Source: Nibribacter ruber
GTDB lineage: Bacteria; Bacteroidota; Bacteroidia; Cytophagales; Hymenobacteraceae
Reading direction: 5' to 3'
DNA: 64,000 nucleotides
Assembly: GCF_009913235.1 (NCBI RefSeq)
Contig: NZ_CP047897.1
Span: forward strand, 248,001-312,000
The notes beneath the pieces are model-generated. The model saw nothing but the letters and a program-made list of their open reading frames with translations. It searched no databases and had not been told where the DNA came from. Each line of letters opens with the position of its first letter. Position 1 is the first letter of the stretch. This document shows positions 560 through 63,813 of the stretch, one piece after another. A program made the translations under genes and the position numbers.

Positions 560-597
560 CGTTTTTGGCTGGTTTTCTGGAAATTAGGCTAAAAGCG
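560..597. repeat. 38-bp palindromic repeat, copy 1
   Basis: Degenerate copy of the dispersed palindrome (arm CGTTTTTGGCCTGTTTTCC). It lies between the dnaN terminator and an otherwise empty gap. The right arm reads AAATTAGGCTAAAAGCG, so pairing is imperfect. Confidence 0.85.
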
Positions 598-939
598 AGT
601 GCTGGTGTCTATCTCTATCAATTGAATTAAATCCGGATTCTGCTTTGGGGATGGGCAGATTCCTGGCGACAAAGAACTCATTACTTATACAGGCCTTATA
701 GTGTGCGCGGTACCTACAATTACATTCATTCGTTTTTGGCCTGTTCCTCTCTAAATAGCCCAAAAACGGATACGGAGTTCAGTACTCACAACTCACAAGC
801 AACACGAACATTCCACCTTTCTATTTGCTTACACCATATCCTCCGCCCATAAGTATCACAAAGTGATTGGAATTCAAGTCTGTTCTAAACAAAAACACCA
901 CCCATGGCAGAGATGGGGCAATTCAAGATGGAAGGCCGC
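598..939. other. Intergenic stretch without a recognisable gene
   Basis: No frame here has coding character. Apart from palindrome copy 2 I see no hairpin, tRNA-like or riboswitch-like pattern. It separates dnaN from gldC and may hold the distal promoter region of gldC. Confidence 0.5.
731..768. repeat. 38-bp palindromic repeat, copy 2
   Basis: Full-length copy with intact outer arms (CGTTTTTGGCCTGTT / TAGCCCAAAAACG) and a degenerate centre (CCTCTCTAAA). It is mid-intergenic, more than 200 bp from either neighbouring gene, unlike the many copies that abut stop codons. Confidence 0.9.
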
Positions 940-966
940 TTGAATAAGAAAAAGCTGTTACCTTTG
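940..966 (+). promoter_or_regulatory. Candidate Bacteroidota promoter for gldC
   Basis: TACCTTTG at 959-966 matches the -7 consensus TAnnTTTG, about 36-45 bp before the gldC start codons. A TTG at 940-942 could be the -33 element, but the 16-bp spacing is short of the usual 19-21. Confidence 0.5.
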
Positions 967-1001
967 TGGCATGAACCAAGCGGCCCTCGGGCGCTAGAAC
1001 C

Positions 1002-1367
1002 ATGAAACAGATGAAGAAATCAGAAATACACTTTAGCATTGCCTTAGATGACCAGCGCGTACCAGAAGCCATCAGCTGGCGCGCTACAGATGCCGGGGAT
1101 GACATGCACTTCGCCAAGGCCATCAACATTGCCCTGTGGGACCGGAATGACACTGGCACCATGAAGATAGACCTCTGGACCAAAGACATGCCCGTTGATG
1201 AAATGAAATATTTTTACATTGACACGCTGGGAGCCATGGCGCAAAGCCTGGAGTCTGCCACCAATGACAAGGTAATGGCCGAGAAAATGCGTGCCCTTTG
1301 CCAGGAGTTGATGGCACACGTAGACGAGCAGCAGAAACGCAACGCCCAGAACAACCCGCAGGCGTAA
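1002..1367 (+). CDS. gldC: Gliding motility protein GldC
   Basis: A 121-residue soluble protein without a signal peptide. The segments KKSEIHFSIALDD, VPEAISWRATDAG and especially DLWTKDMPVDEMKYF are the hallmarks of GldC, a small Bacteroidota protein associated with gliding motility and usually annotated with the Gld machinery. The alternative start at 1011 (MKKSEIHF) fits the usual family N-terminus slightly better than the first ATG, and neither has a clear Shine-Dalgarno. The C-terminus is Asn/Gln-rich and probably flexible. No other gld gene is adjacent. GldC is conserved in many non-gliding Bacteroidota, so motility cannot be inferred from it alone. Confidence 0.92.
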   Translation: MKQMKKSEIHFSIALDDQRVPEAISWRATDAGDDMHFAKAINIALWDRNDTGTMKIDLWTKDMPVDEMKYFYIDTLGAMAQSLESATNDKVMAEKMRALCQELMAHVDEQQKRNAQNNPQA

Positions 1368-1372
1368 GCTTG

Positions 1373-1436
1373 CCTACTGCCTATAAACGAAGAAGCCGCT
1401 CTTGCAAGAGCGGCTTCTTCGTTTATAGGCAGTAGG
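1373..1436. terminator. Perfect 64-bp palindrome, bidirectional terminator between convergent genes
   Basis: Two 32-nt arms meet at 1404/1405 with no unpaired base: CCTACTGCCTATAAACGAAG... reads back perfectly on the other strand. The inner part (GAAGCCGCTCTTG/CAAGAGCGGCTTC then TTCGTTT) resembles a terminator stem. Complementarity then continues outward a further ~19 bp on each side. It begins 6 bp after the gldC stop codon and ends 11 bp before the stop of the convergent gene. Confidence 0.85.
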
Positions 1437-1446
1437 ATAAAATCTT

Positions 1447-1923
1447 CTATTTGTTTACGCTAGAAGCAGGTTTTACTACGGCTACCTCAGGCTTAGGAAA
1501 ACTACGCTTGGCGTCTTCGTCAGACGGTGAAACCAAGGTCTTGGCCACCTTTCCGTTTCGTTTTTCTAACTGCAAGGCATATTGCTTGTCATGGGCCACC
1601 AAGGCTTTGCGTGAGCTATAGTATTGAGAATATTGAGCAGTGCTCAGCAGGCTCTCCAACTGAACATCACGGTCTTTACAAACTCCTTTGATACATTTGT
1701 CTAGTTCAGCCGGGTTGCTGGCAAACTTCTCCTCAAAGGCCACCATCTTTTTGGCGTTCTCTAAGTTAAGCGCCCGAAGCTTTCTGGATTGGAATTGGTT
1801 TAACTGAAGTTCCTTGATCATCTTGTCAGACAAGCTGGCGGCTCTCTGTTCTGCCGGTCCCTGGGCAAATGACGTTACACCGGTTAGGAGCATGATTACG
1901 AAGGCGAACACAAACTTTCTCAT
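1447..1923 (-). CDS. Small secreted helical protein, Spy/CpxP-like pattern, function unknown
   Basis: The chosen start gives a clean signal peptide (MRKFVFAFVIMLLTGVTSFAQ, cleavage after AQ); an upstream TTG-type extension of ten residues would spoil it. The mature part (~138 residues) is predicted helical. It has the spacing seen in Bacteroidota Spy/CpxP-like periplasmic proteins: KELQLNQFQSRKLRALN, then a long charged helix ending in LLSTAQYSQYYSSRK (the family's 'LTPEQ..KY' position). Two cysteines (CIKGVC) may form a disulfide. The Lys/Pro-rich tail is probably disordered. Family assignment is by pattern only, and a metal-stress or chaperone role would be inference. It converges with gldC. 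Confidence 0.65.
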   Translation of the reverse strand: MRKFVFAFVIMLLTGVTSFAQGPAEQRAASLSDKMIKELQLNQFQSRKLRALNLENAKKMVAFEEKFASNPAELDKCIKGVCKDRDVQLESLLSTAQYSQYYSSRKALVAHDKQYALQLEKRNGKVAKTLVSPSDEDAKRSFPKPEVAVVKPASSVNK

Positions 1924-2133
1924 AACTTTATCAGTTTTTAGTGACAACAACACAATTCCCGTGCCATCTTCTTAGGAACAACGGCCTCGGTAAAAAAGTT
2001 GATTACTCCTGTAAAAAATTAAACGAGACCCAGAGGCTAGGGTTATGTCATTTGCCGAAGAAAACCATTGCATAGTCCTTGCAAACCCTACAAAATAGTA
2101 GAGTAAACTGAAGTGTAATGCTCTGAATATCAA

Positions 2134-2670: not shown

Positions 2671-2790
2671 GGGTGTTGGGTAGTCTAGATTACAGACGCA
2701 AGGTACGGGAAAATGGCGTGTTTTGCCACTTGATGCGTCACTTGACCCGGTAAAGCTTTTGCCAAATGAAACACCTAATAAATCAACCTC

Positions 2791-2826
2791 TTGACTCTCC
2801 CTTTGATAGAGGATATACTATATTTG
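2791..2826 (+). promoter_or_regulatory. Candidate promoter of the outer-membrane protein gene
   Basis: TATATTTG at 2819-2826 is a good -7 element, 33 bp before the ATG. TTG at 2791-2793 is 25 bp upstream of it, longer than usual, so the -33 assignment is weak. Confidence 0.45.
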
Positions 2827-2859
2827 TAACAACAGACATTCCTTCTTATTAAAGATTTC

Positions 2860-3984
2860 ATGAGAAAAACTTTTACTGTTTTGGCCTTCACCGTATTCGG
2901 GCTTATAGGTTCTTTGCCGGTTTATGCGCAGTTGGGCAGCAACATTACCATTAAAAACCAGATCATTCTTTCCACGGCAGACACCTTGGTGAACGTGGAT
3001 ATTGTAGAAGGGAGAAGAAACACCAATGAAAACCAGTTAGTTTTTATTAAGGACGGTGCCAAGCGCACCGTATTGGCCAAAGATGTGGTTTCGTACCATG
3101 ACGGAGTTCATTTTTTTAAGTCCTGCCCGGTGCAAGGCGTGGCTACCGTGAAGTTGATAGATTTTAAAGTAATAGGACCGGTGTACTTTGGCCGATCTAC
3201 CCAGCCAGACGGTGAATTGGGGTTCTTCGTTAAAAAAGAGAGCGATAGCCAAGTGGTTTCCCTCTATGACCACAAGGGCCGGCTTTCTGAGTTTTTTAAG
3301 GAATTTCTGCCCAACTATGATGCTTTCCTGCAGCAATCTGGACTACAGCCCACCTATTATTTCTCTTCTCTGGCTAACTTTATTTCGGCGTATAACTCGT
3401 TTACCCAGCCTTCTTTGTACCTGGTAGAAAAATATAGAAGTCCAGAACGACTGAAATTTAGTGTCTTTGGATCCATCAATAGCGCAGACTTTTCTTATGG
3501 CGAAGGGGACATTGGCTATAACAGGGCTCCTTCTTTTAATGTGGGGGCCATAGTCCATTTCAAAAGCCAAAGCAAATACTCCATCAACGTCTGGACATAC
3601 TTCCAAAAGGCTTCTCTTTCCGCTGATAACCACCAGGTAGATATCACCAGCCTCAATGTAGAGCCTGGTTTGAAGGTAAGTTTCCCGGTTACTCCTTTTA
3701 TGTCCTTCGGGTTGGAGCCGGGGTTAGGGCTTGCCTACCACCTCACTGCAGAAATCAATAAAGAAGAACATGAGGTTTTCATGTATGACCATATAGGAAT
3801 GGATGATTTTTCCATTGGGTATGCCCTTAAAGCATCTTTGTCATATAAGACCAAAACCAGCCTGTTTTTAGGGTATTCAAATTACCGCATGCAGGCAGAT
3901 AACTTTAAAAACGTGGTTTTTGGAGACAGCAAGAGAAAAGTAAACTTCTCTAACTTCAAAGTGGGGCTGGCTTACAGACTTTAA
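2860..3984 (+). CDS. Secreted, probable outer-membrane beta-barrel protein of unknown function
   Basis: 374 residues with an N-terminal signal peptide (MRKTFTVLAFTVFGLIGSLPVYAQ). The first half (to ~190) is a soluble domain starting with NITIKNQIILSTADTLVNVDI and containing a short helix-rich stretch. From ~residue 200 the sequence alternates hydrophobic and polar residues in strand-length blocks (FSVFGSINSADFSYGEG, FNVGAIVHFKS, YSINVWTYFQKA, LNVEPGLKVSFPV, and a final FSNFKVGLAYRL). Ending on an aromatic/Arg-Leu strand is typical of OMP_b-brl-type barrels. No binding motif is recognised. Identification as a barrel is from pattern, not homology to a named protein. Confidence 0.6.
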   Translation: MRKTFTVLAFTVFGLIGSLPVYAQLGSNITIKNQIILSTADTLVNVDIVEGRRNTNENQLVFIKDGAKRTVLAKDVVSYHDGVHFFKSCPVQGVATVKLIDFKVIGPVYFGRSTQPDGELGFFVKKESDSQVVSLYDHKGRLSEFFKEFLPNYDAFLQQSGLQPTYYFSSLANFISAYNSFTQPSLYLVEKYRSPERLKFSVFGSINSADFSYGEGDIGYNRAPSFNVGAIVHFKSQSKYSINVWTYFQKASLSADNHQVDITSLNVEPGLKVSFPVTPFMSFGLEPGLGLAYHLTAEINKEEHEVFMYDHIGMDDFSIGYALKASLSYKTKTSLFLGYSNYRMQADNFKNVVFGDSKRKVNFSNFKVGLAYRL

Positions 3985-4005
3985 AGCATAGAAAACCACA
4001 CCTTT

Positions 4006-4043
4006 AACAGAAAGGCCTTACTCTAAAGCAAGGCCTTTCTGTT
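4006..4043. terminator. Bidirectional terminator between convergent genes
   Basis: A 14-bp stem (AACAGAAAGGCCTT / AAGGCCTTTCTGTT) has a 10-nt loop. It is flanked by A- and T-rich stretches and sits between the OMP gene and the convergent thioesterase gene. Confidence 0.85.
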
Positions 4044-4064
4044 AAAAAGCTTTTGCTGATTGTT

Positions 4065-4466: not shown

Positions 4467-4516
4467 GGTACAGGTTGGAGAAATTAGAACATACTCGTAA
4501 AGAAGCAAAGAAGTCT

Positions 4517-4554
4517 CGTTTTTGGGCTATTTTCTAGAAAACAGGCTAAAAACG
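4517..4554. repeat. 38-bp palindromic repeat, copy 3
   Basis: Near-consensus copy (CGTTTTTGGGCTATTTTCT / AGAAAACAGGCTAAAAACG), ending 5 bp before the stop codon of the NCS2 permease. Confidence 0.95.
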
Positions 4555-4559
4555 AGTCA

Positions 4560-5934: not shown

Positions 5935-5972
5935 TGTTTTTGGCCTGTTTTCCAGAAAACAGACCAAAAACG
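5935..5972. repeat. 38-bp palindromic repeat, copy 4
   Basis: Consensus-like copy with the first base changed (TGTTTTTGGCCTGTTTTCC / AGAAAACAGACCAAAAACG). It lies in the gap between the permease start and the hemL terminator. Confidence 0.92.
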
Positions 5973-5985
5973 GAAGGTCAGGAAG

Positions 5986-7423: not shown

Positions 7424-9109
7424 TTAAAGAACTGGGTTTACAATCAGCACGCGGCCGTTGTCAATTTTTAGGATGGGCAGGTACTGGTTGTCTTGTGCCG
7501 GTTTGCCCTGAAGCGTCTGATAGTTCATGCCCTGGTAGAACAAGCTCGGTTGCAGGCCGCTTACCCGTAGCGGGGCCGCATAGCCCTGGCTGTTCAGCTG
7601 CTGGCCCAAGTAATACACCAACTCAAACCCGCTGTAGGTGAAGGCAGAAGGAGGCAGGTTGTACTGGCGCGTGTAGTATTTTCTGAAGGCTTTCACCGAA
7701 GGATCATCTAAGTCCACAAATTTGGGGGCCAGGAAATAAGCCTCCAGAAAGTCTAACTGAGAGAAACTGATCTGAGACATCTCCAGCCAGCTGGCAGGCA
7801 CCACCAAGGGTACTTTAGAGGCCCGCTGTTCCAGTAAACTCACCGTGCTACTAGCCACGTTGGCCGCCGCCGACTGTACCACCAACACGCCCACGTCTTT
7901 GAGGTTCACGCCGCCCAGAATGCCACTCACAGAACCGCTGGTCTTGGAGTTAATCTTCTGGAAGGTCTGTACTTTACCGCCCAGGGCCGTGTAGGCTCTT
8001 TTGAAATTGCCCGCAAACGTGGTGTCCTCCTTGTTACTGTCATAAATGACAACCGCCGTCTTCTTGGCGAAATTTTGGTAGGCAAAGGCTGCCGCTCGCT
8101 GCCCCTGCGTAGCAACAGACGTTTCTAACAGGAACATATAGGGATTGCCCTTGGTCATCTCCAGGTCATCTGAGAACGGATTGATGAGGTTTAGTCCCCG
8201 CTGCTGGGCAATCTTGCCGGCGTACTGGCTGCTGGTTTTGTAAATAGGGCCAATGAGGGCGTCCATGTTGCCCACTTCGGGCAGTTGCAGCACCTGGCTC
8301 ACCTGGGCTGTGTCATTTCCGGTGTCATACGGGTACAGGTTCACTTTAATGCCCTGGCGCATTAGCGTATCACGGGCGGCCTGCATGCCGGCGTAGAAGT
8401 CTGTGATGAAAAGATTCTTCTTGTCTACGCGTATGCCTTGGTCCGTGACATGGAAAGGCAGCAGCACCGCAAAGTTGTACTCGTCCTTTTTAAGCGAGGC
8501 TGTGCGGGTAAGGTAGCTTCTGTCCAGATTGAACTTCCGTACCAGGTCTTCTAGTTGTTGCTTGTCCTGGGCGGTGTACCAGCCACTCACCAACTTGTCT
8601 GCATAGGCGCGGCCCAAAACGGCATCATCCGGAAGCTGGCGTACCAAATACTGAAACGTAGTCTTGTCTGACAGTTGAAGCAGGTAATGGCGTTTCATGG
8701 ATGCAGCGTCCTGTTGCAGCCCCGTGGTTTGAAGCGGCGCCAACGTTTGCAGGGCCTTCAGGTACTCCTTCTTCTCAAACTGCACCTGCGCCAACAGATA
8801 CTGCGCGTCTGGCAAACCGCTCCAATTGGGGAACTGCATCTGCAGCTGTGTTAGCATCTGCTCTGCCTCTTTCCACTTCTTCTCTTTGGCAGCGGCTACG
8901 CTGTAAAGAAAAGCGGCGTCTGGTGCGTACTGGCTACTCGCCGAAATAGACGTGAGCGGCAATAATTCCTCCATGGCCAACGCGTATTTCTGCTGGTCTA
9001 CCAGAAAGCGGCCGTTGTTGAAACGCGTAGTCTGTTCTGCATTGTTTTGGGCCTGCACCTGCCACCCTAGGGTGAGGAACATAGCCGCCAAGACAAGTCG
9101 TTTTTTCAT
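7424..9109 (-). CDS. Periplasmic protein with TPR-like N-terminus and type I binding-protein fold (LpoA-like layout)
   Basis: 561 residues with a cleavable signal peptide (MKKRLVLAAMFLTLGWQVQAQ) and no lipobox Cys. Residues ~25-200 are repeated helix pairs of TPR type (FNNGRFLVDQQKYALAMEELLPL; AQYLLAQVQFEKKEYLKALQTL). Residues ~210-550 resemble the Leu/Ile/Val-type periplasmic binding-protein fold (FAVLLPFHVTD..., DFYAGMQAARDTL, ALIGPIYKTSSQYAG, FAYQNFAKKTAVVIYDSNKEDT, AFTYSGFELVYYLGQQL). TPR plus binding-protein fold is the layout of LpoA, the PBP1A activator of Gammaproteobacteria, but here the protein is not lipidated. No ABC permease genes are nearby, so simple nutrient uptake is not supported. 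Its start codon lies within a palindromic repeat. Confidence 0.75.
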   Translation of the reverse strand: MKKRLVLAAMFLTLGWQVQAQNNAEQTTRFNNGRFLVDQQKYALAMEELLPLTSISASSQYAPDAAFLYSVAAAKEKKWKEAEQMLTQLQMQFPNWSGLPDAQYLLAQVQFEKKEYLKALQTLAPLQTTGLQQDAASMKRHYLLQLSDKTTFQYLVRQLPDDAVLGRAYADKLVSGWYTAQDKQQLEDLVRKFNLDRSYLTRTASLKKDEYNFAVLLPFHVTDQGIRVDKKNLFITDFYAGMQAARDTLMRQGIKVNLYPYDTGNDTAQVSQVLQLPEVGNMDALIGPIYKTSSQYAGKIAQQRGLNLINPFSDDLEMTKGNPYMFLLETSVATQGQRAAAFAYQNFAKKTAVVIYDSNKEDTTFAGNFKRAYTALGGKVQTFQKINSKTSGSVSGILGGVNLKDVGVLVVQSAAANVASSTVSLLEQRASKVPLVVPASWLEMSQISFSQLDFLEAYFLAPKFVDLDDPSVKAFRKYYTRQYNLPPSAFTYSGFELVYYLGQQLNSQGYAAPLRVSGLQPSLFYQGMNYQTLQGKPAQDNQYLPILKIDNGRVLIVNPVL

Positions 9110-9136
9110 TGTTTTCCGGAAATTAGGCCAAAAACA
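9099..9136. repeat. 38-bp palindromic repeat, copy 5, containing a start codon
   Basis: Read on the minus strand it runs TGTTTTTGGCCTAATTTCC / GGAAAACAATGAAAAAACG. Where the consensus has AGGCCAAAAACG, this copy has AATGAAAAAACG, which supplies the ATG and first codons (MKKR) of the gene at 7424-9109. Its other end touches the guaA stop codon. Confidence 0.8.
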
Positions 9137-11709: not shown

Positions 11710-11747
11710 GGTTTTTGGCCTGTTTTCCCGAAAATAGGCGAAAAACG
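11710..11747. repeat. 38-bp palindromic repeat, copy 6
   Basis: Copy with first base changed (GGTTTTTGGCCTGTTTTCC / CGAAAATAGGCGAAAAACG). It ends 2 bp before the -33 TTG of the ffs promoter. Confidence 0.92.
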
Positions 11748-13775: not shown

Positions 13776-14655
13776 GCTGTCCATTCTCATTCCGGTTCAT
13801 AACCGCGACGTTCAGGATTTGGTCCAGTCGCTGGTCCGGCAGGTGGCAACTCTCTCTATTCCGGTTGAAATACGGGTGTATGATGACGGCTCTCAGCTGG
13901 TTTTCAAATCTTTCAACCAATCCATTTCTTCCTCAGAAAGCATTATCTATAAAAAGCTGCCAGTAAACGTAGGCCGCTCCCAGATACGCTACTTGCTGGC
14001 GCAAGAGGCACGTTATTCTACCCTGTTGTTTCTGGACAATGACGTTCTGCCGGTGCATGCAGATTTTCTGGCTACCTACCTTTCCGCCCACTCCGGAACG
14101 GTGACAGTAGGAGGGATTGCCTATCATGATAAACCATCTAACCCAGAATTAGAATTACGCTGGATTTATGGCAAAGAGCGGGAGCAGGCAAAGGCCGCGC
14201 AGCGCCAGAAAAACCCGTATGACAGAGTATTCTTGAGCAATCTGCTGGTAGAGAGACATCTTTTCCTGGAGCATTTTAAGGAGGATGTGGTGATGGCCTA
14301 TGGTCATGAAGACACTTTATTTGCAGACCTCTTGCAACAGCACCAGGTGAAGGTAGTGCACATAGATAACCCGGTGTACCATCTGGGGTTAGATACAGCT
14401 GAGAATTTTATGTGCAAGACAGAGCTAGCCCTCAAGAACTTGCTGCTGCTTCGTAAAAGTGGGTGGGTTCACAAAGAAGGCAAACTCCTCAAAATGCATG
14501 ATTGGCTGGGTAAGCTAGGCGTGCTTTCTTTGCTTAGGCCTCTTCATCCATGGGTTTTACGCAGACTTAAAAATCGACTGATTTCCCCAAATCCTTCTTT
14601 GCGAGTGTTTGACCTCTACCGGCTGCTGCTGTTAGACCAAATCCAGCGTGCCTAA
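13765..14655 (+). CDS. Family 2 glycosyltransferase
   Basis: 296 residues. A GT-A fold is shown by LSILIPVHNRDVQDLVQSL (nucleotide-binding start), IRVYDDGS (first Asp pair), TLLFLDNDVLP (the DxD-type metal motif DND), and GHEDTLFADLL (the 'ED' catalytic-base region of GT2). The C-terminal ~80 residues are basic and hydrophobic and probably membrane-peripheral. Donor and acceptor sugars cannot be deduced. It starts inside ftsE, so the two are co-expressed; a link to cell-envelope growth is inference. Its stop codon is followed 5 bp later by palindrome copy 7. Confidence 0.88.
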   Translation: MVSELSILIPVHNRDVQDLVQSLVRQVATLSIPVEIRVYDDGSQLVFKSFNQSISSSESIIYKKLPVNVGRSQIRYLLAQEARYSTLLFLDNDVLPVHADFLATYLSAHSGTVTVGGIAYHDKPSNPELELRWIYGKEREQAKAAQRQKNPYDRVFLSNLLVERHLFLEHFKEDVVMAYGHEDTLFADLLQQHQVKVVHIDNPVYHLGLDTAENFMCKTELALKNLLLLRKSGWVHKEGKLLKMHDWLGKLGVLSLLRPLHPWVLRRLKNRLISPNPSLRVFDLYRLLLLDQIQRA

Positions 14656-14660: not shown

Positions 14661-14698
14661 CGTTTTTGGTCTATTTCTCAGAAAACAAGCCAAAAACA
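14661..14698. repeat. 38-bp palindromic repeat, copy 7
   Basis: CGTTTTTGGTCTATTTCTC / AGAAAACAAGCCAAAAACA, 5 bp after a stop codon. Its right edge (plus strand AAAAAC) provides the U-tract for the adjacent minus-strand terminator. Confidence 0.9.
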
Positions 14699-17036: not shown

Positions 17037-17074
17037 CGTTTTTGGGCTATTTTCCCGGAAACAGGCCAAAAACG
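17037..17074. repeat. 38-bp palindromic repeat, copy 8
   Basis: CGTTTTTGGGCTATTTTCC / CGGAAACAGGCCAAAAACG, in the gap between two same-strand polysaccharide genes. It is open in the frame of the downstream gene, artificially extending that ORF upstream. Confidence 0.95.
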
Positions 17075-18920: not shown

Positions 18921-19982
18921 ATGCCTGCCCGCCGACCGGTTCTGCTGTATTTTTATCCAGGCCTTTCCTCATTTGTGGTGAAAGATTTGCAGATCATGGA
19001 GAAGGCGTATGAAGTGCGGCACATCGGGTTTCTGCCGGCCAAGAAGTGGCAGACGCCGCTGGTTTGGCTCAAGCAGTTATTCTTCTTGCTATGGCATATC
19101 TGGACCGCCGAAAAACTAGTCTGCATGTTTGCGGGCTATCATTCCTGGTTTCCGGCTATTTTCGGGAAAATAGCCCAAAAACCGGTTTTGATTGTAGCCG
19201 GCGGCACCGACTGCGTTTCGTTTCCTAGCATTGGCTACGGTTGTTTCGCTAAACCCCTTCTAGGTAAATTCACCCGGTGGTCGTTCCAGTTAGCCAGTCA
19301 TATTGCACCCGTGCATGAGAAGCTGGTATGGCAGGACTATACTTATCAACCCAATGATTTTCCGCATCAAGGCTTCAGGTTTCACTGCCCCAATTTAAGC
19401 ACTCCTCATACGGTGGTGTACAATGGCTATGACGCGAGTTTCTGGACTCCAGATTCAGCGGTTACTCGTCAGCCTAATTCTTTTTTGACGGTCTGCGCGG
19501 GCTTGCACATGCGCTTTACCCAGCGATTGAAAGGAGTAGATTTACTATTAGAAGCCGCCCATCAAATGCCTGAAGCAACATTTACCATTGTAGGTGCTCC
19601 CGCTGGATTTACTTTTCAAGACCAACCTAACAATGTGAAGTTGCTTCCAAAGATGCCGTTGGCAGACTTGAGACAAGTATACAGCGCCCATGCTTTTTAC
19701 ATCCAACTTTCCATGTCTGAAGGCTTCCCCAATGCCTTAAGCGAAAGCATGCTGTGCGGGTGCGTGCCGGTAGTGAGCAATGTATCCTCCATGCCTGAGA
19801 TTGTGGGAGATTCTGGGTTTGTGCTGGAGAAAAGAGATAGTGGCTTATTGGTGAAGATGCTACAAAAAGCGGTTGATTCAGACACTTCCATTTTGGGAGA
19901 AATGGCAAGGCAAAAGATTGCCATTCAATACCCAGAAGTACGGCGCGAACAGGAAATGCTTCACCTGTTGCAAAAACTCTAA
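18921..19982 (+). CDS. Family 4 glycosyltransferase
   Basis: 353 residues, GT-B fold. The C-terminal donor-binding half shows the retaining GT4 marks: VCAGLHMRFTQRLKGVDLLLEAA, ATFTIVGAPAG, LPKMPLADLRQVYSAHAFYIQLSMSEGFPNALSESMLCGCVPVVS with the ExxxxxxxE signature (EGFPNALSE). VAGGTDCVSFP is the end of the N-terminal domain. At residues ~76-88 the coding DNA (19146-19183) is a copy-like version of the genome's 38-bp palindrome, reading WFPAIFGKIAQKP. That peptide also fits an ordinary GT4 helix (PAxxGKxxxKPVLIVAGG), so insertion is not proven. Acceptor and donor unknown. Confidence 0.88.
   Translation: MPARRPVLLYFYPGLSSFVVKDLQIMEKAYEVRHIGFLPAKKWQTPLVWLKQLFFLLWHIWTAEKLVCMFAGYHSWFPAIFGKIAQKPVLIVAGGTDCVSFPSIGYGCFAKPLLGKFTRWSFQLASHIAPVHEKLVWQDYTYQPNDFPHQGFRFHCPNLSTPHTVVYNGYDASFWTPDSAVTRQPNSFLTVCAGLHMRFTQRLKGVDLLLEAAHQMPEATFTIVGAPAGFTFQDQPNNVKLLPKMPLADLRQVYSAHAFYIQLSMSEGFPNALSESMLCGCVPVVSNVSSMPEIVGDSGFVLEKRDSGLLVKMLQKAVDSDTSILGEMARQKIAIQYPEVRREQEMLHLLQKL
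19146..19183. repeat. 38-bp palindrome-like sequence inside a glycosyltransferase gene, copy 9
   Basis: The 22-bp centre (GGCTATTTTCGGGAAAATAGCC) matches the palindrome core and the right flank CAAAAACC matches 7 of 8. The left flank TGGTTTCC matches only about half. It is in frame with the GT4 coding sequence. Confidence 0.55.
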
Positions 19983-21633: not shown

Positions 21634-21671
21634 CGTTTTTAGGCTATTTTCTGGAAACTAGGCCAAAAACG
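21634..21671. repeat. 38-bp palindromic repeat, copy 10
   Basis: CGTTTTTAGGCTATTTTCT / GGAAACTAGGCCAAAAACG, 14 bp upstream of the flippase start codon. Confidence 0.92.
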
Positions 21672-23110: not shown

Positions 23111-23148
23111 CGTTTTCGGGCTATTTTCTGGAAAACAGCCCGAAAACG
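23111..23148. repeat. 38-bp palindromic repeat, copy 11, with compensatory changes
   Basis: CGTTTTCGGGCTATTTTCT / GGAAAACAGCCCGAAAACG. The T-to-C change in the left arm is matched by A-to-G in the right arm, keeping the pair. It ends 4 bp before the GT4 stop codon. Confidence 0.95.
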
Positions 23149-24513: not shown

Positions 24514-24551
24514 CGTTTTTGGATTGTTTTCCGGAAATAAGGCCAAAAACG
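24514..24551. repeat. 38-bp palindromic repeat, copy 12
   Basis: CGTTTTTGGATTGTTTTCC / GGAAATAAGGCCAAAAACG, in the divergent gap between the GT4 gene and ffh. Confidence 0.92.
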
Positions 24552-26066: not shown

Positions 26067-26104
26067 AAGAAGCCCGGACCGGATTGGTTCGGGCTTCTTC
26101 GTTT
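26067..26104 (+). terminator. Terminator of ffh, U-tract supplied by a palindrome copy
   Basis: A 10-bp stem (AAGAAGCCCG / CGGGCTTCTT) with a 13-nt loop (inner ACC/GGT pairing) is followed directly by CGTTTT, the left edge of palindrome copy 13. Confidence 0.8.
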
Positions 26105-26136
26105 TGGCCTGTTTTAGTGGAATTGGCCCAAAAACG
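26100..26136. repeat. 38-bp palindromic repeat, copy 13 (37 bp)
   Basis: CGTTTTGGCCTGTTTTAGT / GGAATTGGCCCAAAAACG, fused to the ffh terminator stem with no spacer. Confidence 0.88.
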
Positions 26137-26436: not shown

Positions 26437-26474
26437 CGTTTTCGGCCTGTTTCCCTAAAAACAGCCCAAAAAAG
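26437..26474. repeat. 38-bp palindromic repeat, copy 14
   Basis: CGTTTTCGGCCTGTTTCCC / TAAAAACAGCCCAAAAAAG. Its right edge overlaps the U-tract of the minus-strand terminator of the deaminase gene. Confidence 0.85.
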
Positions 26475-27630: not shown

Positions 27631-27668
27631 CGTTTTTGGCCTGAAACTGCAAAAAGAGGCTAAAAACG
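27631..27668. repeat. 38-bp palindromic repeat, copy 15 (degenerate centre)
   Basis: Outer arms intact (CGTTTTTGGCCTG / GAGGCTAAAAACG), centre replaced (AAACTGCAAAAA), but total length still 38 bp. Confidence 0.85.
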
Positions 27669-33797: not shown

Positions 33798-33835
33798 CGT
33801 TTTTGGCTTGTTTCTGGTAAAATAGCCCAAAAACG
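33798..33835. repeat. 38-bp palindromic repeat, copy 16
   Basis: CGTTTTTGGCTTGTTTCTG / GTAAAATAGCCCAAAAACG, in the divergent gap before a methyltransferase gene. Confidence 0.92.
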
Positions 33836-34649: not shown

Positions 34650-34687
34650 CGTTTTTAGCTTATTTTCCAGAAAAGAGCCCAAAAACG
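34650..34687. repeat. 38-bp palindromic repeat, copy 17
   Basis: CGTTTTTAGCTTATTTTCC / AGAAAAGAGCCCAAAAACG, beginning 2 bp after a stop codon. Confidence 0.95.
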
Positions 34688-38146: not shown

Positions 38147-39130
38147 TTACGCTTTGGCGTACGTCACGGCTTTTACGGCCTCTACCACGCGCTGTACGTT
38201 AGGCAGAGAGGCTTCAATCAAAGTAGGGGCGTACGGCAACGGAACATCGCGGCAGGTAACGCGTTTCACTGGGGCGTCCAGGTAGTCAAAGGCGTTGTGC
38301 TGGATGTTAAAGGCGATCTCAGAAGAAATGGACGCTAGCGGCCAGGCCTCTTCTACCACCACCAGGCGGTTGGTGCGCTTCACAGACTCAATGATGCATT
38401 TATAGTCAATAGGACGCACAGAGCGCAGGTCAATCACCTCGGCCTCTACGCCGTCTTTGGCTAGTTCTTCGGCGGCGGCCAGGGCTACCTTCATCATCTT
38501 CCCGAAGGAAACGATGGTTACGTCCTTGCCTTCGCGCTTGATATCAGCTACGCCAATTGGAATCAGGTATTCTTCTTCTGGCACTTCGCCTTTGTCACCG
38601 TACATTTGCTCAGACTCCATGAAGATGACCGGGTCGTTGTCACGGATGGCGGTTTTCAAAAGGCCTTTGGCGTCATAGGGGTTAGAGGGAACCACTACTT
38701 TCAGGCCTGGGGTGTTGGCGTACCAGTTCTCAAAGTTCTGAGAGTGCTGGCTAGATAACATACCGGCGCTACCAGTAGGACCTCTGAACACCATAGGGCA
38801 GGAATATTGGCCACCCGACATGGACATCATCTTGGCAGCGGAGTTGATTACCTGGTCAATGGCTACCAGGGAGAAGTTAAAGGTCATGAACTCTACAATG
38901 GGTCTGAGACCGTTCATAGAAGCACCTACGCCAATACCAGCAAAGCCCAGCTCGGCAATAGGAGTGTCAATCACCCGCTCCGGCCCGAACTCGTCCAGCA
39001 TGCCTTGGCTTACTTTATAGGCACCGTTGTATTGGGCTACTTCCTCGCCCATCAGGAACACCTTTGGGTCGCGGCGCATTTCCTCTGACATTGCTTCGCG
39101 CAATGCTTCTCTGAATTGTATAGTACGCAT
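38147..39130 (-). CDS. pdhB: Pyruvate dehydrogenase E1 component, beta subunit
   Basis: 327 residues: the transketolase-like pyrimidine-binding half of the alpha2beta2 E1. Seen: REALREAMSEEMRRDPKVFLMGEEVAQYNGAYKV with the thiamine-activating Glu, TPIAELGFAGIGVGASM, GPTGSAGMLSSQHSQNFENWY, and the C-terminal transketolase domain with VIDLRSVRPID and VVVEEAWPLASISSEIA. With E1-alpha (elsewhere) it decarboxylates pyruvate and passes acetyl to E2 lipoyl domains. The sequence favours pyruvate over branched-chain 2-oxoacids, although the families overlap. It stands alone, separated from other pdh genes. Confidence 0.93.
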   Translation of the reverse strand: MRTIQFREALREAMSEEMRRDPKVFLMGEEVAQYNGAYKVSQGMLDEFGPERVIDTPIAELGFAGIGVGASMNGLRPIVEFMTFNFSLVAIDQVINSAAKMMSMSGGQYSCPMVFRGPTGSAGMLSSQHSQNFENWYANTPGLKVVVPSNPYDAKGLLKTAIRDNDPVIFMESEQMYGDKGEVPEEEYLIPIGVADIKREGKDVTIVSFGKMMKVALAAAEELAKDGVEAEVIDLRSVRPIDYKCIIESVKRTNRLVVVEEAWPLASISSEIAFNIQHNAFDYLDAPVKRVTCRDVPLPYAPTLIEASLPNVQRVVEAVKAVTYAKA

Positions 39131-39231
39131 GTTAAGTGGTTTCTACGTCAGTATAGGTTGTAAAATTAAGCTTTGCGGCCTAAATAAAAAAACGAAGCGG
39201 CTTCTTATCACCGTCAAATCTGAAGGAATAC

Positions 39232-39269
39232 CGTTTTTGGCCTGTTTTCTGGGAAATACCCCAAAAACG
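39232..39269. repeat. 38-bp palindromic repeat, copy 19
   Basis: CGTTTTTGGCCTGTTTTCT / GGGAAATACCCCAAAAACG, ending 6 bp before the stop codon of the TPR lipoprotein gene. Confidence 0.95.
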
Positions 39270-39275
39270 CCCGCT

Positions 39276-41066
39276 TTATTTATGCAGCCCGTTATTGAAG
39301 GCTGGCGTTTTGTGATAGTCTCTGAACTCCAAGTCTTCAATGGCCTTGCCAGCCAAGGAGGCATCTGCCTGCACGGCCAGTTTCAAATGCTGGGTGATCA
39401 AGGCTTCGTTTTTAGTTCTAGCGCCAATCACCGCCAGCAGGTAATGAGTGGCCGCATCATAGGGCTTTTGCTCTAAGACTTTCTGAGCATGGGAGGTGGC
39501 TCCTTCATAGTTTTCTTTCAGGAAATACAGGAGGGCGCGGTTGAATTGGGCAGCATGTCCCTCTCCGGCATAGGCCAGGCTGGCGGCGGCATCATCATAC
39601 TGACCCACTTCCAATTCCAGTGCGGCCTTGTCTGTGAAAAGCTGGTGCAAGACTGGCAAAGGACCGCCCAATCGTACGCCGTAGTTGTAGTTGTGGAGGG
39701 CTTCCAGTTCATCGCCGTGCTGGTGGTGGGCAATGGCCAGATTGTAAAACAATTGAGCGGTTGGTTGGCGGTGGGCTGCATACCGGAAATTCAGGATGGC
39801 GTTTTCCAGCAGGCTTTGTTTGGCTTTGGGTTTTAGTTCTTTCTGAGCTTGCTCCAGGTAAATCATGCCCAGGTTGTTCAGAGCGCGCCATTGCATGTGG
39901 GTAGCCACGGCTATTTCATACATTTTCTTTTTTTCGGCGAGCAAGGGGGTGAGGGTCGCCGCGTACTGCATCTCCTCGGGGGTTAGTTGGTCGGTGTTGG
40001 TTTTGTTTTCTACAATCTTGCGAGCCAGCAGGTAAATCTCATAATCCTTGCGGGGGTTAGGCACATAGTCTACCGTCACCTGCGCATAACGTAGTACCGG
40101 GTACACGTACATTTCCAGATACTCATAAGCCGGCAAGGTGCGCAGTTGTTCTTCCTTTTCGGCAAAGGTGCCTTTGCTCTGTACAATGTTCGTGATCTGG
40201 GCTATCTGGTCTTTGGGCAAGGCTGAGTTCTGGATCCGTTCTAAGAAGGTGTCCCACTGCAACTGCCGGGAGGTGACGGCGAAGGCCACTTCCTTGGGAT
40301 TGTTCACGTAAGACTCGGCGTTCAGTTTCTGCTTGATGTATTTTTCCAGGGCGGAGGCTCTTTTGGCGGCGAGGTGGCGTTCAGAGGTTTCTTCTTTCTC
40401 TGGGGAGTGCACCCCCAGAATCTCCACCTTGCTGGTCTTTTTGTTGGACAGGATGAAATCATCCAGCAGCTTGATGTTGGTGCCTTCGGCCTGCCGGAGG
40501 TTGGCAGAGCCCTGGTCAAAGAAGATGGTGAAAGTGAGTGGGTCTTTGCTCTCGTTCTTGTATTCGCCGGGCATATATTCTGCCGCAAACGCGTGCTTTA
40601 CCAGGGTTGCCGTGGTTCTAATGCCGGGTGCCAGAATGACTGGTTTGGTGTAGCGTACCTTGCCTTTGGGATTGGTCAAAACACCCTGCGCCATGAGATT
40701 GCCTCGGGCCTTGGACGGCGTATAGGGAAACCCGAACGAGCGCTGCATATACGCCTTGCCATCCGCGAAATTATATTCGCCAAAATCAAAGCCAAGGGAG
40801 CCCACATGCTCCTGCACGTCTTTGCTGTTCTTGTAGTAGATGCGAATGCCGTAGCGGTAATCTTCCTTGAGCAAGTGTTGAGGCACCTCGGCTTTCACTT
40901 CTACGGGTACCAACTGGCCCCGGGTCATGAGCACTTTTGGATCTACCGTAAGCGTTTGCTGCCGCTCCAGTTTCTTGGCCAGTTTTGAGAAGGTGCAGCC
41001 GCTGCTGGCACACAATAAAAGAAGCACTAAAACGGTTTGAGTAGAGCGGAGAAAAAGTTGGGGCAT
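39276..41066 (-). CDS. Lipoprotein with OmpA-like and TPR domains
   Basis: 596 residues. Type II signal peptide (VLVLLLLCASSGC, lipid-anchored Cys ~24). Residues ~40-170 are beta-rich. Residues ~175-270 show an OmpA-C-like start (TFTIFFDQGSANLRQAEGTNIKLLDDFI, VEILGVHSPEKEETSERHLAAKRASALEKYI), which may touch peptidoglycan. From ~380 onward TPR-type helix pairs occur (AVATHMQWRALNNLGMIYLEQA; QPTAQLFYNLAIAHHQHGDELEALHNYNYG; YLKENYEGATSHAQKVLEQKPYDAATHYL...). The layout recalls Bacteroidota outer-membrane assembly or T9SS accessory lipoproteins, but no specific family is claimed. Confidence 0.78.
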   Translation of the reverse strand: MPQLFLRSTQTVLVLLLLCASSGCTFSKLAKKLERQQTLTVDPKVLMTRGQLVPVEVKAEVPQHLLKEDYRYGIRIYYKNSKDVQEHVGSLGFDFGEYNFADGKAYMQRSFGFPYTPSKARGNLMAQGVLTNPKGKVRYTKPVILAPGIRTTATLVKHAFAAEYMPGEYKNESKDPLTFTIFFDQGSANLRQAEGTNIKLLDDFILSNKKTSKVEILGVHSPEKEETSERHLAAKRASALEKYIKQKLNAESYVNNPKEVAFAVTSRQLQWDTFLERIQNSALPKDQIAQITNIVQSKGTFAEKEEQLRTLPAYEYLEMYVYPVLRYAQVTVDYVPNPRKDYEIYLLARKIVENKTNTDQLTPEEMQYAATLTPLLAEKKKMYEIAVATHMQWRALNNLGMIYLEQAQKELKPKAKQSLLENAILNFRYAAHRQPTAQLFYNLAIAHHQHGDELEALHNYNYGVRLGGPLPVLHQLFTDKAALELEVGQYDDAAASLAYAGEGHAAQFNRALLYFLKENYEGATSHAQKVLEQKPYDAATHYLLAVIGARTKNEALITQHLKLAVQADASLAGKAIEDLEFRDYHKTPAFNNGLHK

Positions 41067-41418: not shown

Positions 41419-42438
41419 GTCTTTAAACGTCTTTCTCCCTTTAATAAAATATTGCCAGACCACGCTGTGGCCGTACCAACCGGTCAGTTGCGTGGTTTCC
41501 TTTTTTACAGGCAAGGCCTGTCGCTTTTCCTTCCAGTACGCACCCTTCTGGCCGAAGAACTCACGGTGCGCCTTCCAAATAGCTTGCACTTGCTTCCATT
41601 GCCCCTTTAAGAGAAACTGCACCGCGGCTACGCCGTCCAACACCAACCGGGTATAAAAGATTTTGTTCAGCTCTTTGTCAGACAGGTTCTTGTAGAGCAG
41701 GGCCGCGCCGTTCCTGAAGTTAAGGAAGGTTTTTCTGGGGTTGTCTTTGGGCAGGGTGCCGCCGCCCACGTGGTAGACGGTGCTCTGGCCCTGGTAATAT
41801 ACCTGATAGCCTAAATTCTGAAAGCGCCAGCATAGGTCAATCTCTTCCATGTGGGCAAAAAAGGCTTTCTCCAGGCCCTGCGCCTGCCAATACGCACTGG
41901 CGCGCACCAGCATGCAGGCACCAGTGGCCCAAAAAACCGGAAGCGTGTCATCATACTGGCCACAGTCCTGCTCCAGGGAGTCAAAAATCCTGCCTCGGCA
42001 GAAAGGGTAGCCATATGCATCTAAAAAGCCCCCGGCGGCACCGGCATATTCAAAGTGCATGCGCTGGTAAAAAGACCTTATCTTGGGCTGACAGGCGGCA
42101 ATCTTGGGGTTTTGCTCCAGCAGGCTGACCATAGGCGGCAGCCAGTTGGGCGTCACTTCTACGTCTGAGTTGAGCAGCACATAATAGGTGGCTTCTACCT
42201 GTTTCAGAGCCTGGTTATAACCCTCACAAAAGCCCAAATTTTCTGGCAGTATGATCTGCCTCACTTTGGGGTAGTGCTCTGTCAGGAAGGCCACAGAATC
42301 ATCTGAAGAGTCATTGTCTGCCACGATGACCTCGGCCTCTGGACTGTTCTCCAGCACATTGGGCAAAAACTGCTCTAGCCAGCGGCGGCCGTTCCAGTTA
42401 AGGATGACCACCGCCACCGTAGGTTTCTTATAATCCAA
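41383..42438 (-). CDS. Family 2 glycosyltransferase
   Basis: 351 residues. VAVVILNWNGRRWLEQFLPNVL, VIVADNDSSDDSVAFL, NLGFCEGYNQAL, YVLLNSDVEVTPNWL (metal-binding DxE/DxD region) and FFAHMEEIDLCWRFQNLGY with the ED-like catalytic region define a rhamnosyltransferase-like GT2. The C-terminal ~100 residues are basic and hydrophobic. It starts with TTG inside ybaB (11-bp overlap), indicating coupling to that gene. Acceptor unknown. Confidence 0.9.
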   Translation of the reverse strand: MDYKKPTVAVVILNWNGRRWLEQFLPNVLENSPEAEVIVADNDSSDDSVAFLTEHYPKVRQIILPENLGFCEGYNQALKQVEATYYVLLNSDVEVTPNWLPPMVSLLEQNPKIAACQPKIRSFYQRMHFEYAGAAGGFLDAYGYPFCRGRIFDSLEQDCGQYDDTLPVFWATGACMLVRASAYWQAQGLEKAFFAHMEEIDLCWRFQNLGYQVYYQGQSTVYHVGGGTLPKDNPRKTFLNFRNGAALLYKNLSDKELNKIFYTRLVLDGVAAVQFLLKGQWKQVQAIWKAHREFFGQKGAYWKEKRQALPVKKETTQLTGWYGHSVVWQYFIKGRKTFKDLHVPDGAALPA

Positions 42439-42907: not shown

Positions 42908-42945
42908 CGTTTTTGGCCTGTTTTCCAGAAAACAGGCTAAAAACG
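42908..42945. repeat. 38-bp palindromic repeat, copy 20 (near-perfect)
   Basis: CGTTTTTGGCCTGTTTTCC / AGAAAACAGGCTAAAAACG: only two mispairs. Its end is 1 bp from the stop codon of the T9SS-type gene. Confidence 0.97.
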
Positions 42946-47544: not shown

Positions 47545-47582
47545 CGTTTTTGGACTGTTTTCCAGAAAAGAGCCTAAAAACG
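47545..47582. repeat. 38-bp palindromic repeat, copy 22
   Basis: CGTTTTTGGACTGTTTTCC / AGAAAAGAGCCTAAAAACG, in the divergent gap between hisS and a GT2 gene. Confidence 0.95.
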
Positions 47583-48454: not shown

Positions 48455-48492
48455 CGTTTTTGGGCAGTTTTCCAGGAATTTGCCTAAAAACG
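48455..48492. repeat. 38-bp palindromic repeat, copy 23
   Basis: CGTTTTTGGGCAGTTTTCC / AGGAATTTGCCTAAAAACG, 5 bp after a stop codon. Confidence 0.93.
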
Positions 48493-52200: not shown

Positions 52201-52238
52201 CGTTTTTGGGGCTTTTTCTGGAAAAGAAGCCAAAAACG
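52201..52238. repeat. 38-bp palindromic repeat, copy 25
   Basis: CGTTTTTGGGGCTTTTTCT / GGAAAAGAAGCCAAAAACG, 16 bp after the membrane-protein gene's stop. Confidence 0.93.
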
Positions 52239-56414: not shown

Positions 56415-56452
56415 CGTTTTTGGCCTCTTTTGGCGAAAATAGGCCAAAAACG
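56415..56452. repeat. 38-bp palindromic repeat, copy 26
   Basis: CGTTTTTGGCCTCTTTTGG / CGAAAATAGGCCAAAAACG, 1 bp from the tamB stop codon. Confidence 0.96.
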
Positions 56453-61097: not shown

Positions 61098-61103
61098 CGA
61101 AAT

Positions 61104-62117: not shown

Positions 62118-62128
62118 ACCAGGCGTTT

Positions 62129-62166
62129 CGTTTTTGGCCAGTTTTCTGGGAAAGAGCACAAAAACG
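62129..62166. repeat. 38-bp palindromic repeat, copy 27
   Basis: CGTTTTTGGCCAGTTTTCT / GGGAAAGAGCACAAAAACG, 11 bp after the tsaD stop codon. Confidence 0.93.
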
Positions 62167-62293
62167 GCGAGTCCTTCGTTCACGGGGAGCAGCTGGAGTT
62201 GTATAGGAAAAAAATTCTTCCTTAACTTACCCCTTGGGTAGACGTTTATTCTTTCTAGATATTTCTACCAACCTACCACCTAAGCCAGTGGGA

Positions 62294-63772
62294 ATGCGAA
62301 ACGCCTTACTTCTCATTTTAACTTTCATGACCCTTCTTCAAGCACAATGTCAAACAAACCATGTGAAGCTTGGTAAGACCCTTTTTGACGCGCACAGCGC
62401 CTACCGGGAGCCTACCATTACCCACCGAAGGTTTAAGCACAAAGACATTGTCCCGCTGTTAGAAGAACTCAAGCAGCATCCTGCGTTTCAGGTGCAGGTG
62501 GTGGGAAAGTCTGTGGAGCAGCGCGATATCTACTTGGTCAAGGCGGGCACCGGGCCCACCAAGGTCATGCTCTGGTCCCAGATGCACGGCGATGAGCCCA
62601 CCGCCACCATGGCCCTGCTGGACATCTTCAATTTCCTGCAAGCCTCCGGCGATGAGTTTGATGCCGTCAGGAAAGAGATTCTGGAGCAGAACACGCTCTA
62701 CTTCATTCCCATGCTCAACCCAGACGGAACAGACGTCTACAAACGGAGAAACGCCCTCAACATAGACCTCAACCGGGATGCCATTCGGCTGCAAAGCCCC
62801 GAGGCCCGCTTGCTCAAGGCCCTACGCGACAGCCTCAAGCCAGAGTTTGGTTTCAATCTGCATGACCAAAGCCGCTTCTACACGGTGGGCACCACCCCAA
62901 AACCGGCCACCATTTCCTTTCTGGCGCCGGCCTTTGATTACAAGCAAACCATCAACTCGGTGCGGGAGCGGGCCATGCGCACCATTGTAGGCTTGAATGA
63001 AGTAGTACAGCAGTTCATTCCTGGTCAGGTGGCCAAATATTCAGATGAGCACGAGCCCCGCGCCTTCGGCGACAACATACAGAAATGGGGAACCAGCCTG
63101 ATCCTGATTGAATCTGGCGGGATGCAGGGCGACCCAGAAAAACAGTACATCCGGCAGATCAACTTCGCCACCATTTTGGCCGCGCTGCAAATCATCGGCA
63201 GTAAGTCGTACACCAGGTTTGAACGCGCCGAGTACTATAAGATACCAGAGAACCAGCGAAACTTGTTTGACCTGGTCCTGCGCGACGTGCGTTACAAAGA
63301 AAACGGCAAGAACTGCGTAATAGACGTGGGCATCTTGCAGGAAGAAATAGACGCGCCCATTCCACAGCAATTCTACTATAAGAGCAGCGTAGAGGAGATT
63401 GGCGACATGAGCGTGTTTTATGGCTACCAGGAACTGGACGGCAAAGGCCTGACCCTGGTGCCGGGCAAGGTGCTGGAGACACCCCTGAATGACCTTTCTG
63501 AGCTGACGCATGAACGTCTGCTGCAACTGTTATCTGAGGGCTATACTACCGTGCGCATGCAAACGCTGCCGTATAACATCAACCCAGTGGAGCAACTGCC
63601 CTTGAACTTGGTGCACGTAAGCGGCCGGGTGTCACACGCGCTGGGCCTGGACCGCATGGCCAACTTTGTCTTAAGGCAGGAAGACGGCACGGTGCGCTAC
63701 GCCATTGTCAACGGCTTTGTCTATGACCTGCAGGGCGAACGGCCCCGGCTCTTCCACGGCGTTGTACTGTAA
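62294..63772 (+). CDS. Secreted M14-family zinc carboxypeptidase
   Basis: ~492 residues from MRNALLLILTFMTLLQAQCQ, a signal peptide; the upstream 20-residue extension is rejected for lacking one. Zn ligands HxxE are in WSQMHGDEPTATMALLDI and the third His in FGFNLHDQSRFYT. The substrate Arg/Asn region is NALNIDLNRDAIRL, and the catalytic Glu is in SLILIESGGMQGD. The layout is that of the Bacteroidota M14 group thought to act on peptidoglycan or exogenous peptides. The last ~150 residues form an extra beta-rich domain. Exported to the periplasm or beyond. Confidence 0.9.
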   Translation: MRNALLLILTFMTLLQAQCQTNHVKLGKTLFDAHSAYREPTITHRRFKHKDIVPLLEELKQHPAFQVQVVGKSVEQRDIYLVKAGTGPTKVMLWSQMHGDEPTATMALLDIFNFLQASGDEFDAVRKEILEQNTLYFIPMLNPDGTDVYKRRNALNIDLNRDAIRLQSPEARLLKALRDSLKPEFGFNLHDQSRFYTVGTTPKPATISFLAPAFDYKQTINSVRERAMRTIVGLNEVVQQFIPGQVAKYSDEHEPRAFGDNIQKWGTSLILIESGGMQGDPEKQYIRQINFATILAALQIIGSKSYTRFERAEYYKIPENQRNLFDLVLRDVRYKENGKNCVIDVGILQEEIDAPIPQQFYYKSSVEEIGDMSVFYGYQELDGKGLTLVPGKVLETPLNDLSELTHERLLQLLSEGYTTVRMQTLPYNINPVEQLPLNLVHVSGRVSHALGLDRMANFVLRQEDGTVRYAIVNGFVYDLQGERPRLFHGVVL

Positions 63773-63775
63773 CCT

Positions 63776-63813
63776 CGTTTTTGGCCTGTTTTTCAGAATA
63801 TAGCCTAAAAACG
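63776..63813. repeat. 38-bp palindromic repeat, copy 28
   Basis: CGTTTTTGGCCTGTTTTTC / AGAATATAGCCTAAAAACG, 3 bp after the M14 stop codon. Confidence 0.94.

Follow-up and report, generated by a model that had tools for sequence, protein, structure and literature searches.

A genus-restricted family of 38-bp palindromes with species dialects at largely fixed chromosomal positions in Rufibacter

The DNA described here (the window) is a stretch of 64 kb, bases 248001-312000 of a single-contig genome of 4,352,178 bases (contig NZ_CP047897.1), in which a 38-bp palindrome with two 19-bp arms recurs, mostly between genes. A scan with the 38-mer finds 29 places with at least 24 of 38 matches, and 0-1 in 20 mononucleotide shuffles. 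The place at 42334-42371 (25/38, just 7 of 19 arm pairs, within a gene) was dropped as a chance match, and 28 palindromes, here called dyad sites, remain. Half-sites with up to 3 mismatches number 37 in the window, where 0.02 are expected. The length is 38 bp in all copies except the one near 26099, which lacks one T and has 37 bp. When four weakly supported small or alternative reading frames are set aside, 26 of the 28 palindromes lie outside genes or touch a gene end only, and two are within conserved genes (19146 and 43591). Eleven are no more than 10 bp from a stop codon. A preliminary description of this DNA had reported 28 dispersed copies of constant length, 26 of them intergenic or at gene edges and more than ten within 10 bp of a stop codon, and the scan, the shuffles and the counts bear it out on these points.

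Genes were called with a simple open reading frame (ORF) caller, which missed at least one conserved gene (18921-19982). The window's species is denoted G000, its sister species G007, R. immobilis G005 and R. tibetensis G009; columns of the 38-mer are numbered 0-37, and -1 is the base preceding it. The sites are as follows, with no strand assigned to any of them; fractions are matches to the 38-bp consensus in the 38-mer scan.

560..597, dyad site, 31/38
731..768, dyad site, 30/38
4517..4554, dyad site, 33/38; flanked by co-directional genes, with a stop codon about 4 bp away
5935..5972, dyad site, 35/38
9099..9136, dyad site, 31/38; adjoins the guaA stop and runs into the start of the following gene
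11710..11747, dyad site, 34/38; 28 bp upstream of the signal recognition particle (SRP) RNA match
14661..14698, dyad site, 31/38; a stop codon on one side and a terminator-like hairpin on the other; 8 genomes aligned
17037..17074, dyad site, 34/38; at the start of a gene
19146..19183, dyad site, 28/38; within a conserved gene
21634..21671, dyad site, 32/38; 6 genomes in the same register
23111..23148, dyad site, 32/38; a stop codon about 3 bp away; 5 genomes have it in the same place, with none found in G009
24514..24551, dyad site, 34/38; divergent gap upstream of the SRP54 gene; 6 genomes in the same register
26099..26136, dyad site of 37 bp (one T short), 27/38 ungapped
26437..26474, dyad site, 32/38
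27631..27668, dyad site, 28/38
33798..33835, dyad site, 31/38; between divergent genes; counterpart found in G007, none in G006, G013, G005 or G009
34650..34687, dyad site, 32/38; immediately 3' of a stop codon
38042..38079, dyad site, 33/38; counterpart in 6 genomes
39232..39269, dyad site, 33/38; G009 counterpart decayed in place
42908..42945, dyad site, 36/38, the best copy; adjoins a stop codon
43591..43628, dyad site, 32/38; within a CHU_C (type IX secretion signal) gene
47545..47582, dyad site, 33/38; between divergent genes
48455..48492, dyad site, 29/38; between convergent genes, about 4 bp 3' of a stop codon
50175..50212, dyad site, 33/38
52201..52238, dyad site, 31/38; same place in 4 genomes
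56415..56452, dyad site, 33/38; adjoins the TamB gene stop
62129..62166, dyad site, 32/38; about 10 bp 3' of a stop codon
63776..63813, dyad site, 32/38; about 2 bp 3' of a stop codon

The family extends over the whole genome, which is of the genus Rufibacter (Bacteroidota). Half-sites with up to 2 mismatches number 760 + 745 there, compared with 0 + 1 for the reversed control, and 1,010 palindromes match a 36-bp pattern with up to 3 mismatches; the copy number is neither at chance level nor peculiar to the window. A sample of 464 kb taken across the genome contains 181 sites (39 per 100 kb); extrapolation to the full length gives an estimate of about 1,700, or about one per 2.5 kb. Gene context was assigned for 179 of the 181 copies (score >22): tandem gaps hold 105, convergent gaps 41 and divergent gaps 22, and the other 11 fall in genes or are unassigned, so that about 94% (168/179) are intergenic. 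In 42 of 187 cases a stop codon lies 0-15 bp from the edge of a site; for start codons this distance is seen in 5 of 149. A site is found in about half of the gaps of at least 60 bp (147/275) and in 26 of the 35 convergent gaps of 60-400 bp. The few copies inside ORFs include the one in the CHU_C protein of the window and three at 1328, 1818 and 3349 of locus L024, two strong and one weak, in a single 3.6-kb frame; such copies may lie in repetitive linkers. The SRP RNA gene of the window (Rfam RF04183, 11776-11879, + strand) has its palindrome 28 bp upstream, possibly in the promoter region.

Each 19-bp arm carries the block GTTTT twice, 11 bp apart. Among 177 of 180 copies (those with at least 27 matches), GTTTTT and the inner TT are 95-100% conserved, and columns 7, 9, 10, 12 and 18 are variable. 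The 38-mer ends symmetrically in CGTT/AACG, and outside it only a pyrimidine/purine preference at -1/+1 is seen. Arms occur in pairs: none of 253 half-sites (up to 3 mismatches) in the 464 kb is solo. At the centre, self-complementary dinucleotides are avoided (G000, 36 vs 61.5 expected; G013, 4 vs 24.7; G005, 12 vs 64.6), and the preferred dinucleotide differs by species, being CA/TG in some, CC/GG and AG/CT in others. Read on the sense strand in four species, 91 central pairs are of the C-A kind and 50 of the T-G kind. Tests of the orientation of this pair give p = 0.16 for G000, 0.02 for G007, 0.85 for G013, 0.89 for G005 and 0.18 for G006. A model of oriented elements, in which a two-orientation mixture gains 63.7 log units compared with 43-55 in symmetrised nulls, was not adopted.

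The palindrome is restricted to one genus. Each of the 16 Rufibacter genomes, sampled over 40-464 kb, yields 33-62 sites per 100 kb with a generic profile. The same profile finds none in 400 kb drawn from five other genera of the family (six genomes). Of 291 Cytophagales genomes, four match the 36-bp pattern with up to 3 mismatches, all of them Rufibacter (1,010, 966, 709, and 24 sites); the other 287, from 114 other Cytophagales genera, have no match. When the GTDB contig collection, which may omit records close to the window's genome, is scanned with a degenerate 38-mer, matches are confined to Rufibacter records (5 stretches). No description of the palindrome was found in the open-access literature (titles and beginnings of abstracts; subscription papers were not covered), in keeping with the preliminary view that it is new for this group.

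Within the genus the palindrome has dialects. When symmetric profiles are iterated on stretches sampled from eight genomes, they converge on distinct consensus sequences, and the density of sites is similar. One consensus, YCGTTTTTGGCCTGTTTTCC, is common to the window's species and its sister G007. That of G006 is CCGTTTT(A/G)GGCCTGTTTT, that of G013 CCGTTTTCGGGCTCATTTCC, that of R. immobilis GCGTTTAGGGGCTGTTTTT, and that of G001 CTGTTTTTGGGCTGTTTTT. The window's consensus is open in all reading frames, as first described; this property holds for the window's species, but the consensus sequences of four other species contain stop codons.

Two spellings coexist in R. immobilis. In 460 kb (loci L062-L064 and L156-L175) there are 196 sites, whose 392 arms are of type A (GTTTAG) in 265 cases, of the generic genus type B in 115, and of other types in 12. 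Typed by one mark, 87 sites have two A arms, 91 have one, and 18 have none, and the two arms are independent (p = 0.40), with no orientation to genes (24 vs 20). We read the two arm types as a dialect change in progress. An alternative is that two arm-specific proteins read the two classes.

Positions of the sites are largely fixed across species. Occupancy was counted over gaps between conserved genes of the window, as occupied in both, in the window's species only, in the relative only, or in neither. The counts are 16/0/0/37 for G007, 11/3/1/30 for G006, 10/1/2/22 for G013, 11/2/1/22 for G005, and 8/6/2/20 for G009; over few gaps they are 2/0/3/7 for G001 and 4/0/3/8 for G010. G006, G013, and G005 share most of the positions yet use their own consensus, and in alignments the sites stand in the same register with another spelling (e.g., in the gaps at 14655, 21619, 24478, 38035, and 39130). 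Some copies of R. tibetensis are recognisable though decayed in place. In the gap 39130-39276, a block at about 39160-39200 (GTAAAATTAAG...AAATAAAAAAACG) beside the site appears by eye more conserved than the site in six species; it is perhaps a promoter or leader.

Divergence within the sites is specific to columns. In 22 aligned pairs from G000 and G007, the two species differ at 16 of 384 positions of core columns (4%), at 88 of 298 of variable columns (30%), and at 22.3% of 2,557 in the flanks. Over 17 pairs, columns 1-6 and 14-15 differ by 0-3%, compared with 20.7% in the flanks. In eight sites compared with G013, the dialect columns 6, 12, and 13 are changed in about 70% of the arms and columns 1-4 are unchanged. 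From the column-specific divergence together with the shared positions, we read the sites as maintained in place, not as decaying mobile repeats. The early judgement that this is a dispersed family under selection, neither a CRISPR nor a terminator, is upheld.

Few or no sites are found on a plasmid and on a chromosomal island. The chromosome of R. tibetensis has 41 sites in 120 kb. Its plasmid (235 kb) has three in 200 kb by the generic profile and four by the G009 profile, despite offering 75 gaps of at least 100 bp to the simple ORF caller. A 1,887-base piece of this plasmid matches G009 contig 2 at 100%. In G013 contig 2 (155 kb), one site is found in the first 20 kb. A 20-kb defence island of the window's genome (L018, 2640001-2660000) has no sites; it contains a DarT gene with its macro-domain partner, an ABC-3C system, a STAND-like NTPase below the Pfam cut-off, and an rve integrase. 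Absence of sites might act as a detector of islands. In a plasmid collection searched with one 40-mer, the R. tibetensis plasmid is the sole match, and viral contigs have no exact match to one degenerate pattern.

From these observations we infer a protein, its oligomeric state, its function, and a cause of the dialects. Each 38-40 bp dyad would be the duplex-DNA recognition site of a putative genus-specific dimeric (or tetrameric) protein. Each 19-bp arm would offer it two T-rich contact blocks (the GTTTT blocks about 11 bp, or one helical turn, apart), and the arms would flank a central dinucleotide that is usually not self-complementary. Selection would hold the roughly 1,700 sites in place over the genus. 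The putative protein most likely would organise or insulate the chromosome between transcription units. As its specificity drifts, the sites would follow arm by arm, giving rise to species dialects. Where the reader is weakened or lost, perhaps in a derived clade of larger genomes, the sites would decay in place. Judged from sequence comparison, we give a probability of about one half to the reading that the dyads are sites on chromosomal DNA for a putative genus-specific DNA-binding protein that organises or insulates the chromosome. The more specific proposal, that a dedicated protein reads 40-bp address words chromosome-wide, respelled arm by arm as its specificity changes (R. immobilis being about two thirds through such a respelling) and marking native chromosome as opposed to plasmids and islands, is made tentatively, at somewhat less than even odds.

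Protein-bound chromosomal dyads are known. matS, Noc sites, and parS have about 13-16 bp, and their known sets comprise tens of copies. The Rufibacter sites resemble them in being dyads, chromosomal, and spread along the chromosome, and they are under column-specific constraint in situ, as is expected for sites of chromosome-organising proteins. The centre, TGTTTTCCGGAAAACA, superficially resembles parS. A reader of the ParB/Noc kind, which this centre prompted, was not adopted: the ParB-type helix-turn-helix gene is single-copy in 16 of 16 Rufibacter genomes, with no extra paralogue. Attachment (att) sites of serine integrases are imperfect dyads of about 38-40 bp with two blocks per arm and a non-self-complementary central dinucleotide. 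The likeness to them is one of layout; they differ from the present sites, of which there are about 1,700 per genome. A serine recombinase as reader, prompted by this layout, was not adopted either, with 1-10 resolvase-domain matches per Rufibacter genome and no clear genus-wide orthologue among them.

Several points weigh against a protein-binding site of this kind. A cognate protein was not found among the candidate families searched in the 16 Rufibacter genomes. Selection acting alone would be hard put to alter about 2,000 sites in concert, a change that molecular drive would explain more easily. Of the 22 BLAST-aligned pairs from G000 and G007, ten are gapped inside the site, several of these looking like alignment artefacts, and just 12 of the 22 G007 counterparts can be scored as sites; at least one may be truly missing. 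Typing of the R. immobilis arms by a mixture model gives 98 mixed sites, compared with 83 expected, and 11 B-B sites, compared with 18. Spacing, which in itself speaks for the reading, is more even (coefficient of variation 0.69) than under random intergenic placement (1.16) or under permutation of gap labels (0.86 +/- 0.06), yet this evenness is partly the same thing as one site per gap, and the permutation null includes the site-free L018. In the pooled data of eight species the two arms covary at columns -1, 0, and 6 (Stouffer z 4.7, 3.0, and 6.3), and plain binding of a dimer does not require covariation of outer columns. One idea is that template-switch correction of imperfect palindromes may be its source.

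It is also a difficulty that ten of the 16 species have looser consensus sequences, which resemble one another. At equal sample size the information ranges from 45 to 26 bits and drops with genome size (Spearman -0.72, p = 0.002). In a guaA tree, which is a single-gene tree with low backbone support, the deepest branches are those of the sharp species G000/G007, G013, and G006, and a later clade (support 55) comprises eight of the ten loose species (G002-G004, G009-G012, and G014). This arrangement weakly suggests decay of sites rather than their build-up.

Among other explanations, the one that survives best is a signal of self-DNA or DNA uptake. A receptor or processing enzyme would prefer DNA that bears the site, and recombination of imported homologous DNA would spread and respell sites by molecular drive, producing dialects. 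DNA uptake sequences (DUS) of Neisseriaceae are words of about 10-12 letters. With them the Rufibacter dyad shares species dialects with a common core, high chromosomal density, and depletion in plasmids and islands, and the dialects at largely fixed positions, dense on the chromosome and rare on plasmid and island DNA, speak for such a signal. According to Frye et al. 2013 (PMC3630211), DUS of Neisseriaceae are short words with species dialects and common intragenic copies, and two DUS dialects are reported in Simonsiella muelleri, which the two arm types of R. immobilis resemble. A ComEC-type homologue is present in 16 of 16 Rufibacter genomes and is not diagnostic. However, DUS, being short and often intragenic, differ from the Rufibacter word, a dyad of 38-40 bp that is not seen unpaired and is about 94% intergenic, and dyad symmetry would point to a dimer more than to a receptor of the pilin kind. 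We regard an uptake signal as unlikely, while still to be reckoned with.

Mobile palindromes now decaying, spread by an insertion sequence (IS) transposase or a transposase of the kind associated with repetitive extragenic palindromic elements (RAYT), are a further alternative. The Rufibacter sites share with repetitive extragenic palindromic (REP) elements and bacterial interspersed mosaic elements (BIME), which according to PMC3733652 are GTAG/CGTC repeats that go with RAYT, a palindrome of 20-40 bp, high copy number, and an intergenic location, here often near stop codons. Y1 transposase-like genes exist in 15 of 16 genomes, with three in the window's genome. However, RAYT as driver was rejected: G007 has no Y1 transposase match despite 709 sites (up to 3 mismatches), and 17 sites, about the background number, are present in some 33 kb made up of ten Y1 loci, each from a relative and not from the window's genome. 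No GTAG or CGTC tag is present at the element end in 177 copies. In G000 and G013 the flanks are about as similar as after shuffling of columns, and one identical pair was seen in G005. Positions are largely fixed where differences between relatives would be expected, divergence is column-specific where uniform decay would be expected, the word is respelled species-wide, and the plasmid is poor in sites. Terminal repeats of miniature inverted-repeat transposable elements (MITE) or IS also have single arms at element ends and come with shared flanks or a larger unit, and no solo arms were seen here. Elements of this kind are by now quite improbable and largely refuted, and the likeness to REP/BIME first proposed for the window, with the RAYT or IS200-type transposase that it called for, is not supported.

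Palindromic elements of Rickettsia insert in frame in genes. The Rufibacter dyads share with them palindromy and, in the window's species, open frames. The suggestion of a miniature version of such elements is not supported, since genes are avoided by 26 of the 28 copies and stop codons interrupt the consensus in four other species.

It had also been left open whether structure or a protein site is selected, and covariation was proposed as a check. Arm pairing in G000 is below the arm-shuffled expectation (2,529 vs 2,588 +/- 14), with z -2.9 when one more column is included. In 238 sites of four species in tandem contexts, 338 G-U and 362 A-C mismatches on the sense strand show no overall preference for G-U, although at the central pair taken by itself the two are unequal (50 vs 91). 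The centre is strongly negative for covariation in the eight pooled species (-9.5). Some outer columns do covary: besides those of the pooled species, columns -1, 0, and 7 have z 7.3, 3.7, and 5.2 in the 87 R. immobilis sites with two A arms. Selection stands from the original suggestion, and structure does not for most of the element. Predicted terminators occur in 25 of 147 gaps with a site and in 14 of 128 without, with no clear association. An A-run, not a T-run, is on the 3' side, and the layout of an intrinsic terminator (a GC stem and then a T-run) is not seen. No Rfam family at threshold is found on the copies of the window, where the SRP RNA is the sole Rfam match. A hairpin in RNA or single-stranded DNA, acting as a 3'-end stabiliser, terminator, or cruciform, would account for inverted repeats near stop codons and in convergent gaps and for the outer covariation, but it is the least probable explanation and, for an RNA hairpin, is rejected for most of the element by the pairing deficit, the lack of G-U bias, of a clear association with terminators, and of an Rfam family at threshold, and by the copies in divergent gaps (22 of 168 intergenic).

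Two further observations concern other sequences. Stretches of the window's genome contain two perfect 40-bp palindromes around GTATAC (GTTATTACCCGCGTATACACG..., GCCGCGTTATTACGCGAGTATAC...), which are unlike the dyad family. A 374-aa ORF at 2860-3984 (+ strand) of the window matches nothing in Pfam and nothing in those stretches of the relatives with which it was compared.

A set of about 1,700 sites, largely stable in position and jointly respelled, would make the co-evolution of a DNA-binding protein with thousands of its sites testable. R. immobilis is apparently in the middle of such a change, and the derived clade with looser sites offers a natural experiment of loss. If the sites organise the chromosome, they would represent an unusually dense and sequence-specific organising system in Bacteroidota. 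If they are signals of self-DNA, they would be a code for uptake or self-recognition in a phylum for which the search of open-access literature found no report. A lack of sites may also point to DNA gained by horizontal transfer, and annotation would profit from such a mark.

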